Source: Bacteroidota bacterium (GTDB lineage: Bacteria; Bacteroidota; Rhodothermia; Rhodothermales; Bin80). From it: a stretch of DNA of 32,268 nucleotides. Of the stretch, positions 12,194 to 29,343 are shown in pieces (position 1 is the stretch's first letter; the number at the start of each line of letters is the position of its first letter). The notes under the pieces are model-generated. The model searched no databases. It was given only the letters and a program-made list of their open reading frames with translations, and was not told the DNA's origin. A program made the position numbers and the translations under genes. The stretch covers positions 66,584-98,851 of the forward strand of contig JAPOTE010000006.1 of the NCBI GenBank assembly GCA_026709335.1. The letters are read 5' to 3'.

Positions 12194-12266
12194 GCCGCGT
12201 TCGTCTAGGGGTCTAGGACGCCGGCCTCTCACGCCGGTAACACGGGTTCAAATCCCGTACGCGGTA
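12194..12266 (+). tRNA. tRNA-Glu (anticodon CTC)
   Basis: A complete cloverleaf is visible. The acceptor stem is 12194-12200 with 12259-12265 (7 bp, first pair G-U). The D-arm starts at 12203 with the tRNA-Glu-like GTCTAGGGGTCTAGGAC. The anticodon stem CCGGC/GCCGG (12221-12225 and 12233-12237) frames the loop CTCTCAC with anticodon CTC at 12228-12230. The T-arm is ACGGG-TTCAAAT-CCCGT (12242-12258), and the discriminator is A. CCA is not encoded (ACA follows). It reads GAG glutamate codons. It lies convergent to clpP, whose stop codon is only two bases beyond its 3' end. Confidence 0.97.
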
Positions 12267-12268
12267 CA

Positions 12269-12952
12269 TCACTTCTTGCCCGGAAGTGTCTGCGATTCCA
12301 GGACGTTGTCAATCAACCCGTAGTCTTTAGCCTCCTGTGAACTGAGCCAGTAATCTCGATCCGCGTCCTTCGCAATTGTGTCTGTGCTCTGCCCAGTATG
12401 CTGTGCTAAAATCTCATATAGACGTTGTTTCAACCAGAGAATTTCCCGAGCCTGTATTTCAATATCAGATGCCTGTCCTTGCGCCCCACCCAGAGGCTGA
12501 TGCAACATGATTCGGGAATTGGGAAGAGCAGCTCGATGATCTTTTGTTCCTGCTGCCAGCAGCACGGATCCCAAAGATGCCGCCAATCCGACGCAGATGG
12601 TGGCAACCGGACATGATACATACTGAATCGTGTCATATACTCCCAGCCCACTATATACCATCCCACCTGGCGAATTGATGTATATATTCATATCTCGCTC
12701 CGGATCCTCACTGGTCAGATACAGGATTTGAGCAATTGCCAAATTTGCAACAACGTCATTGATAGGAGTACCAATAATGATGATTCTATCCTTGAGTAGA
12801 CGACTGAATATATCATATGCCCGTTCTCCACGGGATGTCTTCTCAACCACAATAGGAACCAAGTTCCCAATAGGCTGATCTCCCAATCCTACCTTGGAAA
12901 TACTCTCAGGTAACTGGAGACTTTTGGAAAATTTCACAAAATCATTTACCAT
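12269..12952 (-). CDS. clpP: ATP-dependent Clp protease proteolytic subunit ClpP
   Basis: ClpP forms the 14-subunit serine-protease chamber fed by ClpX or ClpA-type unfoldases. The 227-residue product carries the triad S126 ('[14 protein letters not shown]'), H151 ('MLHQPLGG') and D200 ('DADRDYWLS'), plus 'YINSPGG' (91-97). The loop before the serine reads Gly-Leu-Ala-Ala-Ser-Leu-Gly rather than the usual Gly-Gln-Ala-Ala-Ser-Met-Gly. The N-terminal ~33 residues are longer than mature ClpP and are probably a propeptide. It follows tig by 23 bases, the common tig-clpP order, but clpX is not next; instead tRNA-Glu lies on the other strand. The single copy here does not tell whether other clpP genes exist. 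Confidence 0.95.
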
Positions 12953-19158: not shown

Positions 19159-21990
19159 CTAACGTGAGAGATAGAGGTTTCGCATTTCGTACGGACGTTT
19201 ATAGTGCTTATCCGTAAGAGCATCTACAAACGCTATTGTTTCTCCTGTGGATTTCATTTCCGGACCCAGTTCTTTTCGAACCTCTGGAAACTTGGACCAT
19301 GAAAACACGGGTTCTTTGATTGCGTATCCTTCCAGTTTGGAATCCAACAACCCTTGACTTCGAAAATCTTTGAGTTTCGCTCCCAGAATCACTTTACTGG
19401 CAATTCGTGCAACGGGGATACCGGTTGCCTTTGCAACAAATGGGACCGTACGTGATGCACGCGGATTCGCTTCAATTACATAAACCGAGTCATTTTGTAC
19501 GACCATTTGCACATTCATCAACCCAAGTACATCCAGGCGATTGGCAATCGCAATGGCATGCTTTCTGATTAACTCAAGAGCAGATTCACTTAGGGAGTGG
19601 GGAGGCAGAACTGCCGTGGAATCCCCTGAATGTACTCCTGCAGGCTCAATGTGCTGCATGATTCCGGTGATCCATACCTCTCCGTCTGAATCACGTACTA
19701 TATCCACATCAATTTCGATTCCATTATTTAAGAACAGGTCAAGTAAAATTTCATTATCGGGCAACAATTTATAAATATCTGTCACGTAATGCTCCACCTC
19801 TTCCTTGTTAATCGCAATTCTCATGCCTTGACCTCCCAAAACATAACTGGGACGAACTAAAATAGGATATCCGATGGATTCTGCTACGCGGACGGCATCG
19901 TACACCGTACGAGCCATACCATATGGCGGGAAAGGTATGTCCAGCTCCTTAAGAATCTCAGAAAATTTGCCACGATTTTCTGCCAAATCCATCCGATCAT
20001 AGGGAGTACCAAAGATTTGAATTCCTCTCTCCGACAGCTTACCTGCCAATTTTAATGCAGTCTGCCCCCCAAGTTGAACAATGATACCCTCTGGATTTTC
20101 ATGTTCAATAATGTCTAAAACCCGTTCCCAGAATACCGGCTCGAAATAAAGTTTATCTGCAATATCAAAATCTGTAGAAACAGTTTCTGGATTGCAGTTG
20201 ACCATAATGGCCTCATACCCCATTTCCTGAACTGCCTGTACTCCATGAACACACGAGTAATCAAACTCAATTCCTTGCCCAATCCGATTGGGTCCGCTGC
20301 CAAGAATAATGATTTTATCCTTATCCGAGACCGGGCTCTCCGTCGCACTTTCATATGAGGAGTAGAAATAGGGGGTAATTGCCGGAAATTCACCAGCACA
20401 CGTATCAACCAGTAAAAACTTGGACCGAATATTTTGTGATAACCGATACTCCCGCACTTCTTCTTCGGTGACTTCATCCGCGACGAGCCAAGCAATCTGT
20501 ACATCTGAATAACCGTGTCGCTTTAGTTGCAAAAGCTTTTCCGGTGTGAGATCCTGTAGACGTAGCTTACAGATTTCATGCTCTATATCAACGAGCATCT
20601 TGATCTGCTGCAGGAACCAGTAATCCACTCGGGTAATATCATACACTTCATCCATGGATGCCCCGTGAATAAAGGCATGTTTGATCTGCAGCGTTCGATC
20701 CCAATAGGATTTTCGCAGACGCTCTCGAACATGCGGTCTTTTGGGATTATCCCGATCTCCACCCAAACCAGCATAGCCGATCTCCAAGCTCTGCCATGCT
20801 TTCTGTATGCTTTCTGTGAAAGTTCTTCCGATAGACATGACTTCCCCAACTGCCTTCATCTGGGTGGTCAGCTCTTCATCTACACCTTCAAATTTCTCGA
20901 AATTCCAGCGAGGAATTTTAGTCACTACATAGTCAATAGCTGGTTCAAAACAAGCGCTCGTGGTTGCTGTAACATCATTTTTAAGTTCATCCAGGGTATA
21001 TCCGACAGCGAGTCGAGCCGCAACTTTTGCAATCGGATATCCAGTAGCCTTTGAGGCCAGGGCTGAAGAGCGAGAAACTCTCGGATTAATTTCAATTGCG
21101 ATCATGCGTCCATCTTCCGGATTAATTCCGAACTGCACATTACAACCACCCGCAAAAGTCCCAATAGAGCGCATCATCCGAATTGCTGTATCCCGCATGT
21201 GCTGGAACTGCTTATCTGTAAGCGTCTGAGAGGGGGCAACTGTGACCGAGTCTCCTGTGTGCACTCCCATAGGATCTACATTTTCAATTGTACAGATAAT
21301 GATCACATTATCATTGGAATCCCGGAGTAATTCAAGCTCAAATTCCTTCCATCCATACACCGATTCTTCCACCAGAACTTCATGAACTGGTGAGAGCTCC
21401 AGCCCACGCATAATTTTCCGTTCAAGTTCTTTTGAACTCCATATGATTCCGCCTCCTGCACCACCTAGTGTAAAAGAAGGGCGAATTACTACAGGTAATC
21501 CGCCCAAAGACTGAATTACTTCTTTAGCCTCCAGCAAGCTCTTGGCAACCCGACTTCTCGCCTGGTCTACCCCAATCTTTTCCATCAAATCACGGAATTG
21601 TTGCCGATCTTCCGTGATATGAATCGCATCAATGTCTACACCAATAACTTTTACATTCTGTTCTTCCCAGTATCCCTGCCGTTGCAACTCATCGGCCAAG
21701 TTCAATCCAGTTTGCCCTCCCATAGTCGGTAAAACTGCATCCGGGCGCTCTTTTTCAACGATATTTCGGATTGAATCTGCGGTCAATTCGTCCAAATAAA
21801 TTCGATCCGCAGTAATCGGATCGGTCATAATCGTAGCAGGGTTGGAATTGACCAAAATAACCTCATACCCCTCCTTTCGAAGGGCTCTGCATGCCTGGGT
21901 CCCGGAATAGTCAAATTCACAGGCCTGACCAATTACAATTGGGCCTGATCCAATCAATAATATTTTTTGAATATCTGTACGCCGTGGCAT
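19159..21990 (-). CDS. carB: Carbamoyl-phosphate synthase large subunit lacking the allosteric domain
   Basis: CarB makes carbamoyl phosphate from bicarbonate, two ATP and ammonia passed from CarA, feeding pyrimidine and arginine synthesis. The 943-residue product has two ATP-grasp halves: '[20 protein letters not shown]' at about 10-29 and the matching '[19 protein letters not shown]' near 560, with a helical middle region (about 400-545). It ends at '[20 protein letters not shown]' plus 19 residues, precisely where E. coli CarB (1073 residues) goes on into the ~130-residue MGS-like domain that binds UMP, IMP and ornithine. No frameshift is seen, and yebC starts 3 bases later, so the short form is genuine. 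To my memory CarB of about 940-950 residues is also usual in Bacteroidota. Confidence 0.95.
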
Positions 21991-25396: not shown

Positions 25397-25472
25397 TGGT
25401 ACCCCCGCCAGGACTCGAACCCGGATATACGGCTTAGGAGGCCGTCGCTCTATCCTGTTGAGCTACAGGGGC
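25397..25472 (-). tRNA. tRNA-Arg (anticodon CCT)
   Basis: The - strand folds as a full cloverleaf: acceptor GCCCCTG (25472-25466) with CGGGGGT (25407-25401), including G-U pairs; D-arm GCTC...GAGC; anticodon stem ACGGC/GCCGT with loop CTCCTAA, giving anticodon CCT; T-arm CCGGG-TTCGAGT-CCTGG; discriminator A at 25400, with CCA encoded at 25399-25397. It reads AGG arginine codons. The rpe frame runs into it and stops in its anticodon loop, and folK starts just after it, so it is embedded in the nuo-rpe-folK transcription unit. Confidence 0.96.
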
Positions 25473-26123
25473 TGATTGGCTACGAAACTGGGCTATTCGT
25501 TCAGAAACGTTTCCTCCAAATATAGCACTTCCAGCCACGATCACATCTGCACCATTCCCAATGACCTCGCATACGTTATCTGGACCAATCCCTCCATCAA
25601 CTTCCAATAATACGTTGCTTTTACTATAATCTATCATGGATCTGAGTTGACGTACACGTTGACTTGATTGGGGGATATATGATTGACCTGCAAACCCCGG
25701 GTATACCGACATGATCATCGCTACATCAATTTCATTGAGCCAGGGAATGAACTGATCCAGAGGAGTATCCGGATTCATTGTTAATCCAGGGCGACAGCCG
25801 AGTTTACGAATCCTGCGAAACGTATCGCCAAGCGCTTGACAAGCTTCTACATGCACGGTGACAATATCTGCCCCTGCCTCTATGAATTCATCAACATATC
25901 GTTCGGGCTTGGTAATCATCAAGTGAACATCTAGTATAACACCACTCTTCTGCTTTAGAGGTTCGAGTGCTGCAACCGCGAGTGGTCCAAATGTGATGTT
26001 TGGCACAAAATGTCCATCCATCACATCAATATGTAACCAATCTGCCCCCGCATCAACCGCTTCCTCTGCGTGTGCTTCCAGCCTCGCAAAATCAGCCGAG
26101 AGAATTGAGGGTGCAATCAGCAT
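25434..26123 (-). CDS. rpe: Ribulose-phosphate 3-epimerase, 3' end running into tRNA-Arg
   Basis: Rpe interconverts ribulose 5-phosphate and xylulose 5-phosphate in the pentose phosphate pathway. The TIM-barrel protein has 'IAPSILSADFARL' (3-15), metal ligands H31, D33 ('HIDVMDGHFVPN'), H67 ('DVHLM') and D176 ('EVDGGIG'), with D33 and D176 as acid-base pair, and 'MSVYPGFAGQ' (138-147; usually GFGGQ). The phosphate site 'GADVIVAGSAIF' is at 191-202. Homologues normally end about where residue 216-217 lies here. The last 12 residues, APVAQQDRATAS, are translated from the first half of tRNA-Arg, and the TAA stop is anticodon-loop bases 36-38. nuoH ends 3 bases upstream. Confidence 0.95.
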   Translation of the reverse strand: MLIAPSILSADFARLEAHAEEAVDAGADWLHIDVMDGHFVPNITFGPLAVAALEPLKQKSGVILDVHLMITKPERYVDEFIEAGADIVTVHVEACQALGDTFRRIRKLGCRPGLTMNPDTPLDQFIPWLNEIDVAMIMSVYPGFAGQSYIPQSSQRVRQLRSMIDYSKSNVLLEVDGGIGPDNVCEVIGNGADVIVAGSAIFGGNVSERIAQFRSQSAPVAQQDRATAS

Positions 26124-26126
26124 GAT

Positions 26127-27152
26127 TTACGAAAAAACTGCAACACCGATCGCCATCACAAGCACGTTCACTAGTGCCACCGGTAGCAGTACTTTCCAGC
26201 CAATCTGCATCAGTTGATTATACTTGAAGCGAGGAAGAGTCCAACGTACCCATAAGAACAGGAATCCAAAGAAAGCCACCTTAACAAGTAAACTTCCAAC
26301 CTGTAACAAGGAAAACCATATCGATCCGTCAAGAACAGGGAAAGCTGCAAGCAACTGAGGTTCAAACGGAATGAGATATCCCCCGAAGAAAAGTGTGGCA
26401 ATCACAAATGAAGCTACGAACCAGTTTACGTATTCAGCAAGAAAGAACATACCAAACTTCATGCCGCTGTACTCAGTATGGTATCCACCTACCAATTCCT
26501 GCTCGGCTTCTGGCAAATCGAACGGGGCGCGGTTGGTCTCTGCAAAAGCAGTGATAATAAACAGGAGTGCACCAATTGGATTCCGGAAAAAATTCCATCC
26601 CAGAATCGCACTTCCCATCGCCTGATCCTCTACGATCTCCACAACACTTAGAGAGCCTGCAGTTATTACAACACTGACCACAGCCAACCCCATTGAGAGT
26701 TCATATGAGATCATCTGGGCACTAGACCGTAATCCTCCCAAAAGTGAAAATTTGCTGTTACTGCTCCATCCCGCCAAAGTGACCCCATAAACCGAAACAC
26801 TAGTCAATGCCAGAATAATGAGTACGCCCACAGCACTATCTACGATCACAAAACCGCGGGCATATGGAATTAAGGCAGGAACAGTCATGGCAATCACCAC
26901 CATGACCACCGGCGCAAGAGAATGCACAAATTTACTTGCACCTTCCGGAACCGTATCCTCCTTGAAGACAAGCTTGAATACATCCGCAAATGGCTGAAAG
27001 AACCCTCCCGGGCCAACCCGATTCGGTCCGGGTCTATTCTGTATGAATGCGGACACTTTTCGTTCGGCATACACCAAACAGGATGCCGATATAAGCATGA
27101 AGTTGATAATTCCAAAGCCAACCAAGGCCAATAATCCCGGGGATAGATCCAT
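26127..27152 (-). CDS. nuoH: NADH-quinone oxidoreductase subunit H
   Basis: NuoH is the membrane subunit of complex I that forms the quinone-entry cavity against NuoB and NuoD. The 341-residue product has about eight membrane helices and the conserved loops 'AERKVSAFIQNRPGPNRVGP' (29-48), 'FKLVFKEDTVPEGASKF' (58-74), 'SYELSMGLA' in mid-protein, and 'AFAETNRAPFDLPEAEQELV' followed by 'GGYHTEYSGMKFGMFFLAEY'. Length is normal. It follows nuoG by 3 bases. In most genomes nuoI comes next; here rpe follows instead. Confidence 0.96.
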   Translation of the reverse strand: MDLSPGLLALVGFGIINFMLISASCLVYAERKVSAFIQNRPGPNRVGPGGFFQPFADVFKLVFKEDTVPEGASKFVHSLAPVVMVVIAMTVPALIPYARGFVIVDSAVGVLIILALTSVSVYGVTLAGWSSNSKFSLLGGLRSSAQMISYELSMGLAVVSVVITAGSLSVVEIVEDQAMGSAILGWNFFRNPIGALLFIITAFAETNRAPFDLPEAEQELVGGYHTEYSGMKFGMFFLAEYVNWFVASFVIATLFFGGYLIPFEPQLLAAFPVLDGSIWFSLLQVGSLLVKVAFFGFLFLWVRWTLPRFKYNQLMQIGWKVLLPVALVNVLVMAIGVAVFS

Positions 27153-27155
27153 TTT

Positions 27156-28883
27156 TTAGCTGATAACCTCGGTCTCAATGGCTGGAAGCGCAACCCCGCT
27201 CAAATCCATGGCACCATAGGTAGCTCCCTTAAATGCCGGAATGGTATCACTGATGAGTCGCATGATTTTTCTGGGGCCTAGGGGGCCAGTTTTAGCTCCC
27301 AATGCTTTTAGAAGGATCGGTATGATTTCCCAACTGGGCTTGCAATCAATATAATGAGATTCATTATGCCAGCGGTCAAAAGGGGTCCCGTGACGATCCG
27401 CACGACTAAGTCCCATCTGCATCATGAGAGTACGATTCATCCCCTTGATCACTTTGGCTGGGACTACCCGCTGTGCACGCCCGGATTCATTCACATAGGT
27501 GCCAATCGTTTCGGCAACCATTGCTGCCGGCAACGCTACATCCGCTGTGGGCAATGTTTGATTCGTCGTGCTATAGTAGTGTAATATGACCTGAATATCC
27601 TCCAGAGACTCAATACTGCAGAGTTCCGAGGCAACGGGATCGTCCTCTAAAATGTAGATTGCCTGAAATTCTCCAGATTCTATTCGTGCCTGCCAGAGCG
27701 GAAAATCAATTGGGGCTAATCCCAGGCGTTCACATCCTTGAGCATTGGGAGTTCGATCATCTGTACGCAACCACCCATCACCATGCCCTGGCTCAATATG
27801 AGAAATATAACCTGCAACCTGTCCGCCAACTGCCTCCGCAAGCTGTATCAACATCCAGTTATCCTCAACCGTTGCATATGCAGAGGCTATAAATACCGTT
27901 TGTGTACCCGAGTTCTTCAGAATTTCCGTAACCCTCTGAAGAGAAGAATCCCATGAGGCTGATTCGGTTTCACCATGGAGTGACGGTCCAAGCGGGCGAT
28001 TCTCATTGAATCGATGATACGTCAAGCGATCTTCATCCGGAAGCCAGAATTCATTGACCTCCGGATTGGCCCGCGGTGTGATCCGTAAAACCAGATTGTC
28101 CCGTACCCATAGATCACAATTTGATCCTTTCGCATTGGTAGTCGTGATGGACGGTGTACTAGCCATCTCCCAAATCCTCGCCTGAAATCTGAAATCAACA
28201 GAGGTGAGTGCTCCTACCGGGCACAAATCAATCACATTCATGGAATAGGGTTCATCAAACGAACCCCCTGGGGGTGTGATGGGGTAATTTTTGACACCCC
28301 GTTCAATAATCGTTAGCTGTCCACTCCCGGAAATCTCATCTGTGAAACGAACACATCGTGTACAATTAATGCAACGCTCAGCATCAAGCACAACACGGGG
28401 GCCAAGCTTCACCTTTTTTGGCTTGTGAACCTTTCGGAATTCAAATCGCGATCCCTCCGGACCATACTTGTAGGCCTGAATTTGAAGCGGACAATGACCC
28501 GCCTGATCACAGATTGGACAATCCAGTGGATGATTGATCAGCAAAAATTCCAGAGTATCACGCTGGGCCTCTTCAACTTTCTTGCTTGAACGTGCGGTAT
28601 GGACAACCTGTCCGTCTGATATGATATGGCTACAACTGGTCTGCAACTTTGGGAAATATTGAATCACCGGTTTTCCCTGTTCATCCAACCGAATCTCACC
28701 CGTTTCCCGATCACGGACAGGAGCACCAATATCCACAAGGCATTGCCGGCAGTTTGCCGGAACAGACATCGAGGGATGGTAGCAAAAGTGAGGAAGTTCT
28801 ATTTCATGATCCAAACAAAACTGAAGCAAGCTCTGTGGGCCTTCAAATTCGTACTCCCTACCGTCTATTGTGACGTGTGACAT
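27156..28883 (-). CDS. nuoG: NADH-quinone oxidoreductase subunit G, short form
   Basis: NuoG carries the electron path between NuoF and NuoI. I start at ATG 28883 (MSHVTIDGREYEFEG), one base after the upstream lipoprotein stop; 11 extra codons upstream would lie in that gene. The 575-residue product has the 2Fe-2S ligands C34, C45, C48 and C84, the His-Cys3 4Fe-4S site H118, C122, C125 and C131, and the second 4Fe-4S site C171, C174, C177 and C221. The molybdopterin-oxidoreductase-like C-terminal part (from about 240) is much shorter than the E. coli protein (~900 residues) and poorly conserved. The cluster-binding half is complete. Neighbours nuoF and nuoH confirm its place in complex I. Confidence 0.93.
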   Translation of the reverse strand: MSHVTIDGREYEFEGPQSLLQFCLDHEIELPHFCYHPSMSVPANCRQCLVDIGAPVRDRETGEIRLDEQGKPVIQYFPKLQTSCSHIISDGQVVHTARSSKKVEEAQRDTLEFLLINHPLDCPICDQAGHCPLQIQAYKYGPEGSRFEFRKVHKPKKVKLGPRVVLDAERCINCTRCVRFTDEISGSGQLTIIERGVKNYPITPPGGSFDEPYSMNVIDLCPVGALTSVDFRFQARIWEMASTPSITTTNAKGSNCDLWVRDNLVLRITPRANPEVNEFWLPDEDRLTYHRFNENRPLGPSLHGETESASWDSSLQRVTEILKNSGTQTVFIASAYATVEDNWMLIQLAEAVGGQVAGYISHIEPGHGDGWLRTDDRTPNAQGCERLGLAPIDFPLWQARIESGEFQAIYILEDDPVASELCSIESLEDIQVILHYYSTTNQTLPTADVALPAAMVAETIGTYVNESGRAQRVVPAKVIKGMNRTLMMQMGLSRADRHGTPFDRWHNESHYIDCKPSWEIIPILLKALGAKTGPLGPRKIMRLISDTIPAFKGATYGAMDLSGVALPAIETEVIS

Positions 28884-28884
28884 C

Positions 28885-29343
28885 TTATCTGGTTTCTTCC
28901 GGGGACACGCGAACACCGGACGCTATCATGGTCAGCGCCGGATCCTTTCCTGGAGCATCCTCTTGGAAATGTGCTTCCATATCCTCCTCAGTAACAGAGA
29001 GCGTTCCAAAGACTACAGCATGTCGGCCACTGATGTCAGTTGGTACAGTATATACATATTCGCCGCTCTCTTCAATCTCTGTGTGGACACGAAGGCCATC
29101 TCCTGTCTCCAAACTTCGAAGCATAAGCCAACATCCATTCACTTGGCATACTTCATGCACGGTACCTGCAACGGCCATAATTCGGTCCGTATAATTGGCA
29201 GGTTCAGCCAGGACCGCCTCCACTGGAATGGAATCAATACCATCCCCAGGATCCCCATATACAGAATCGCTCATGATTTCTGTACGATTACAGGCCGCTA
29301 AAAAAAACCAACTGATGATCAGGATATAATTTATTCGAAACAT
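28885..29343 (-). CDS. DUF4920-like lipoprotein within the nuo operon
   Basis: Starting at ATG 29343 (the frame extends 13 codons upstream into nuoF), the product is 152 residues with a lipoprotein signal: hydrophobic 6-17 and lipobox L-A-A-C18. The mature domain has 'AGTVHEVCQVNGCWLMLRSL' at 59-78 with C66 and C71, then 'EYVYTVPTDISGRHAVVFGT', an OB-fold-like beta pattern that matches DUF4920 proteins ('v.G.v..vC...GCWm.l'). Members are periplasmic or envelope proteins of unknown function. It lies between nuoF (5-base gap) and nuoG (1-base gap), so it is surely co-expressed with complex I. The Cys pair could bind a metal or form a disulfide; this is inference. Confidence 0.8.
   Translation of the reverse strand: MFRINYILIISWFFLAACNRTEIMSDSVYGDPGDGIDSIPVEAVLAEPANYTDRIMAVAGTVHEVCQVNGCWLMLRSLETGDGLRVHTEIEESGEYVYTVPTDISGRHAVVFGTLSVTEEDMEAHFQEDAPGKDPALTMIASGVRVSPEETR

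Follow-up and report, generated by a model that had tools for sequence, protein, structure and literature searches.

The rpe gene of a Rhodothermales bacterium ends inside the adjacent tRNA-Arg(CCT) gene: a conserved overlap that is probably tolerated rather than regulatory

In the window (the entire analysed stretch of 32,268 nucleotides) rpe is without any stop codon ahead of the tRNA-Arg(CCT) gene lying downstream of it, which raises the question of how such an overlap came about and whether the cell makes use of it or simply tolerates it. The following features are concerned:

27156..28916, minus strand: nuoG, upstream; the order nuoG-nuoH-rpe is widely kept across the order
26127..27152, minus strand: nuoH, the upstream operon partner, whose stop lies 3 nt ahead of the rpe ATG
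25434..26123, minus strand: rpe, ribulose-phosphate 3-epimerase, 229 amino acids, with the conserved fold in residues 1-217 and the stop inside the tRNA
25437..25472, minus strand: rpe/tRNA overlap of 12 codons (APVAQQDRATAS), corresponding to the acceptor 5' strand, the D arm and the anticodon stem/loop
25434..25436, minus strand: the rpe stop TAA, Sprinzl positions 36-38 in the anticodon loop of the tRNA
25397..25472, minus strand: tRNA-Arg(CCT), with CCA encoded at 25397-25399; the sole close match in the source genome
24856..25389, minus strand: folK, whose ATG lies 7 nt past the encoded CCA, so that cutting of the tRNA 3' end would leave it almost without a leader

The genes nuoG, nuoH and rpe are arranged head to tail, with 3 nt separating nuoH from rpe. 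The assignment of the latter as the ribulose-phosphate 3-epimerase gene is certain, its product matching TIGR01163 over residues 2-213 with 265.8 bits in the profile search and having 1tqj as its closest solved chain. According to the listing of open reading frames, the 229-residue translation of 25434-26123 (minus strand) ends with ...FRSQS-APVAQQDRATAS, followed by TAA. The tRNA gene is placed at 25397-25472 (minus strand) by ARAGORN and matches the Rfam family RF00005 over 25400-25472 with 64.1 bits. Minimum free energy folding of the junction, which says little for tRNAs in general, yields no perfect cloverleaf and a stability not above that of shuffled sequences. The first base of the tRNA is at the same time the first base of rpe codon 218, and 12 sense codons (APVAQQDRATAS) are read inside the tRNA until the frame meets a TAA made up of the third anticodon base and the two loop bases after it (raw tRNA nucleotides 37-39, Sprinzl 36-38). 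The initial annotation had described precisely this, a frame which enters the tRNA at its very first base and terminates 12 sense codons later in the anticodon loop, and both statements are borne out by the sequence.

The comparison with the rpe 3' ends of related genomes, proposed at that time, comprises 16 genomes of the family (ten of the genus and six others), all sequences being assemblies, many of them metagenomic. In all 16 of them rpe and tRNA-Arg(CCT) are adjacent, and 15 lack an rpe stop ahead of the tRNA, the overlap thus spanning 15 species of five genera. Within the genus, tRNA-Arg(CCT) is single in ten out of ten genomes and adjoins the rpe 3' end without an intervening stop in all of them. 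The missing stop is common to nearly the whole family; G015 possesses one, a TAG 11 nt ahead of the tRNA, and the tail differs with the frame. Nine genomes (six in the genus including that of the window, three elsewhere in the family) terminate rpe at the TAA of tRNA nucleotides 37-39; G012 uses the same frame, its contig ending inside the tRNA so that the stop itself is not seen. In four genomes, all belonging to the genus, one nucleotide fewer ahead of the tRNA shifts the rpe frame, and translation terminates at a TAG formed by tRNA nucleotides 8-10 upon addition of two residues (PL). Finally, rpe of G011 enters the tRNA in the third frame and ends at a TAG at nucleotides 21-23. The tRNA, which is 95-100% identical across the 15 family genomes having it in full, closes all three frames at nucleotides 8, 21 and 37, all within 39 nt, and the overlap accordingly measures 10, 23 or 39 nt among species. 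Since other species enter the tRNA in the other two frames, the match between codon phase and first tRNA base seen in the window is not special.

A sequencing or assembly error which conceals an rpe stop ahead of the tRNA had been named as a finding that would undo the observation. The assembly from which the window derives is indeed fragmented (125 contigs), but the stop is equally missing from the separate assemblies of nine more congeners and of five genomes elsewhere in the family. With 14 relatives lacking it, such an error is ruled out for all practical purposes, and the overlap is real and conserved.

Within the structure model of Rpe (mean pLDDT 89.9) the last helix comprises residues 206-217 and ends at the tRNA boundary, whereas residues 220-229 show pLDDT values below 50 and are predicted to be disordered. 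This agrees well with the earlier view that the conserved fold ends about where the tRNA begins. One might consider the tRNA-encoded tail a selected C-terminal extension of Rpe, as the 12-residue tail is identical in the nine species in which it can be read. This identity, however, is explained by the tRNA. In addition, five species carry other tails (PL or RPRSSTG), G015 has no tRNA-derived tail, the peptide is not conserved between frames and, by prediction, it is disordered. As frames and tails differ among species, we rejected a selected tail peptide, which appears very improbable. Because four species carry two extra residues and one a different tail, the tail peptide as such is apparently not needed.

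With respect to the origin of the arrangement, the comparison was extended to the order (114 genomes, part of whose loci were inspected). Among the loci examined, tRNA-Arg(CCT) was not found beside rpe outside the family. At the outgroup rpe loci nuoH still precedes rpe, and nuoG is mostly nearby as well; folK is not adjacent to rpe in them, and no tRNA is present in the stretches scanned. Rpe of these other families of the order ends at a normal stop and is mostly 219-224 amino acids long. In a tree calculated from Rpe residues 1-212 the 15 overlap species split from G015 and the outgroups with a support of 95/94, G015 forming the earliest supported branch of the family. The species terminating at nucleotides 8-10 constitute one clade (support 99/98), and four changes of state suffice over the five labels. 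The notion that the tail was acquired thus holds, it being a derived state in view of the outgroup lengths and the upstream stop of G015. The simplest history would be that tRNA and folK arrived behind an rpe with its own stop, that this stop was lost once and that the frame changed twice. The family ancestor would then have carried the tRNA-Arg(CCT)-folK block close behind an rpe gene still bearing its stop, as G015 does today; the line from which the 15 overlap species descend would have lost this stop together with the last residues and shifted termination to the stops within the tRNA, while indels at the junction would later have switched the frame without apparent harm. A weak G1-U72 pair of the tRNA, considered as a special adaptation of the family, was dismissed since outgroup tRNA-Arg(CCT) genes have the same pair.

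Fourfold degenerate sites are saturated along rpe, with an identity of about 0.3 that jumps to about 0.8-1.0 at the tRNA. In the genus set the last 24 rpe codons ahead of the tRNA exhibit a fourfold identity of 0.26-0.36 compared with 0.82-1.0 within the tRNA; conservation does not rise over these codons, so that nothing points to a promoter or processing signal being conserved within rpe. About three to six codons per lineage are free from the end of the fold up to the tRNA. The probability of finding at most one stop among 16 genomes amounts to 0.09-0.40 if the species are treated as independent and to 0.35-0.70 for nine independent lineages. The missing stop is therefore not evidence for selection; it fits neutral drift, and selection would not be required. 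None of the 15 overlap species has reverted to a stop upstream of the tRNA despite the saturation of synonymous sites, which leaves room for selection.

The reading we prefer, with moderate confidence, is that the overlap is tolerated and has long persisted within a polycistronic operon, nuoG-nuoH-rpe-tRNA-Arg(CCT)-folK. The rpe gene and the tRNA would reside on shared transcripts, on which ribosomes closely trailing RNA polymerase would complete rpe at the stop within the tRNA before any cutting; the tRNA would fold afterwards and be excised by RNase P and 3' nucleases. That RNase P cleavage at 25472/25473 leaves an rpe RNA without a stop, as stated in the initial annotation, is a necessary consequence of the mapped 5' end. 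Ribosomes left on such cut RNA would presumably be rescued by tmRNA, which is general in bacteria and present in all 16 family genomes. The cut at the tRNA 3' end, in turn, reduces the folK leader to a few nucleotides: in the 14 genomes in which the overlap is present and both ends are readable, folK starts 4-10 nt past the discriminator base, and this is the leader it would keep after excision. Only four of the 30 long open reading frames in the window are preceded by a Shine-Dalgarno motif, so that the near-loss of its leader would not have to silence folK. For the same reason it is possible but unlikely that the GGGGG of the tRNA acceptor acts as Shine-Dalgarno sequence for folK.

Conflict between the two genes would be small if the tRNA were transcribed from a promoter of its own inside rpe and seldom cut from the rpe mRNA. 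Bacterial tRNAs commonly possess their own promoters, and diverged promoters could slip past a conservation test. Yet synonymous change is not suppressed in the last 24 rpe codons ahead of the tRNA, for which reason we discarded an embedded promoter, and the rpe mRNA would in any case still contain the tRNA and remain a substrate of RNase P. Separate transcripts are hence unlikely to account for the arrangement. A certain competition between tRNA and Rpe would follow from the anatomy of the genes alone. It might also be put to use by the cell, each transcript yielding either the tRNA, along with non-stop rpe and leaderless folK, or Rpe and FolK, as Mukai proposed for selB/selC; ribosomes translating rpe into the tRNA would, moreover, open up the tRNA structure and lay bare the start of folK. 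The maintenance of the overlap in 15 species and five genera, the position of folK 4-10 nt past the tRNA in 14 genomes and the published model of a like anatomy (PMC8124441) speak in favour of such regulation. Against it, overlap length and frame vary (10, 23 or 39 nt), the missing stop fits drift, rpe, tRNA-Arg(CCT) and folK are without evident link and, with Shine-Dalgarno motifs as rare as 4/30, acceptor guanines exposed by the ribosome would provide a weak handle. We consider a regulatory choice of this kind quite unlikely, and a tolerated overlap is probably the better description. Still more doubtful is the farther-reaching idea that a single kinetic race between ribosome and RNase P on the shared RNA sets the output of elongator tRNA, Rpe and FolK, is kept by selection across the family and renders rpe routinely reliant on ribosome rescue.

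One published bacterial parallel is already known. selC is nested in or partly overlaps selB, the selB stop of Dyella and Luteibacter being located at nucleotides 46-48 of tRNA-Sec; some relatives have the selB stop ahead of the tRNA, a downstream open reading frame follows closely, and processing is proposed to yield non-stop selB and a leaderless downstream mRNA (Mukai 2021, PMC8124441). The present locus resembles it in that a protein gene enters a downstream tRNA on the same strand and stops inside, in the existence of relatives whose stop precedes the tRNA, in the close downstream gene and in the non-stop and leaderless products proposed. As in this partial type of overlap, rpe is a genuine protein gene with its conserved domain intact, tRNA-Arg(CCT) is a genuine tRNA gene on the same strand, and the overlap is conserved in relatives, one of which (G015) carries the stop ahead of the tRNA. 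It is not the selB/selC system proper, though, in which the regulatory connection between tRNA-Sec and its own elongation factor SelB is obvious: the present locus combines an ordinary elongator tRNA, tRNA-Arg(CCT), with an unrelated metabolic gene, and, unlike in selB/selC, stops in all three frames are used. A second bacterial precedent was not found in the literature searched. In mitochondria, as summarised in the passages of PMC9674279 and PMC8124441 which cite Ojala et al. (1981) and Doublet et al. (2015), the mRNA 3' end is fixed when a tRNA that borders on a coding region, or overlaps with it, is excised, and mRNAs may lack a fully encoded stop. Excision of tRNA-Arg(CCT) would likewise set the rpe mRNA 3' end; in the mitochondrial case as described there, however, polyadenylation completes the stop, whereas the uncut rpe RNA encodes a full UAA or UAG, which separates the locus from this type of punctuation. 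Trans-translation by tmRNA would deal with rpe RNA once the tRNA 5' end has been cleaved, but it is a general housekeeping system and there is no sign of a coupling specific to rpe.

An overlap of the selB/selC sort is thus not bound to selenocysteine biology, and a core metabolic gene appears able to persist for long without its own stop by virtue of a tRNA offering stops in every frame. With one sister that terminates rpe separately and three lengths of overlap, the family offers a natural series for the study of the sharing of one RNA by RNase P, translation and rescue. Gene finders which forbid overlaps between coding sequences and tRNAs would truncate or mis-call such genes.

In the near-complete genome of the congener G002, 25 of the 41 tRNAs contain a stop at nucleotides 8-10 and six close all three frames. 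In G000 and G002 alike, two tRNAs each end an upstream open reading frame seen in relatives too, namely tRNA-Arg(CCT), which terminates rpe, and tRNA-Val(CAC), which terminates a gene located behind an open reading frame we take, from the look of its translation, to be holA-like; frames that stay open across tRNAs in relatives rich in G+C were left out, as homology did not support them. The gene behind the holA-like frame encodes cysteines and one hydrophobic stretch, has no Pfam match and ends inside tRNA-Val(CAC) at a TAG of nucleotides 21-23 or 8-10. This overlap occurs in five of the ten congeners (loci L125, that is G000:C99 around 19581-19654, L142, L146, L147 and L153), and several others stop at or ahead of the tRNA edge, which implies gain and loss within the genus. 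A presumably frr-like open reading frame, likewise named from its translation, ends 5 nt ahead of tRNA-Ser(GGA) in G000 (L139), and in G002 (L246) the last base of its stop is the first base of this tRNA. Considering the gain and loss at tRNA-Val(CAC) and the near abutment of the frr-like gene on tRNA-Ser(GGA), overlap between tRNA and coding sequence is a recurring outcome in these genomes. A further very tight junction is found in the window itself, where tRNA-Glu(CTC) (12194-12271, plus strand) ends 1 nt from the stop codon of an open reading frame on the minus strand (12269-12952).

No tRNA-Lys is among the 41 tRNAs detected with RF00005 in G002, a genome which is 99% complete; it may be split by an intron or absent from the assembly. 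On contig C3 of the same genome (L230:1605-1883), a group I intron (matching RF00028 with 60.7 bits) splits the anticodon loop of tRNA-Arg(TCT), and RF00005 searches miss this tRNA.
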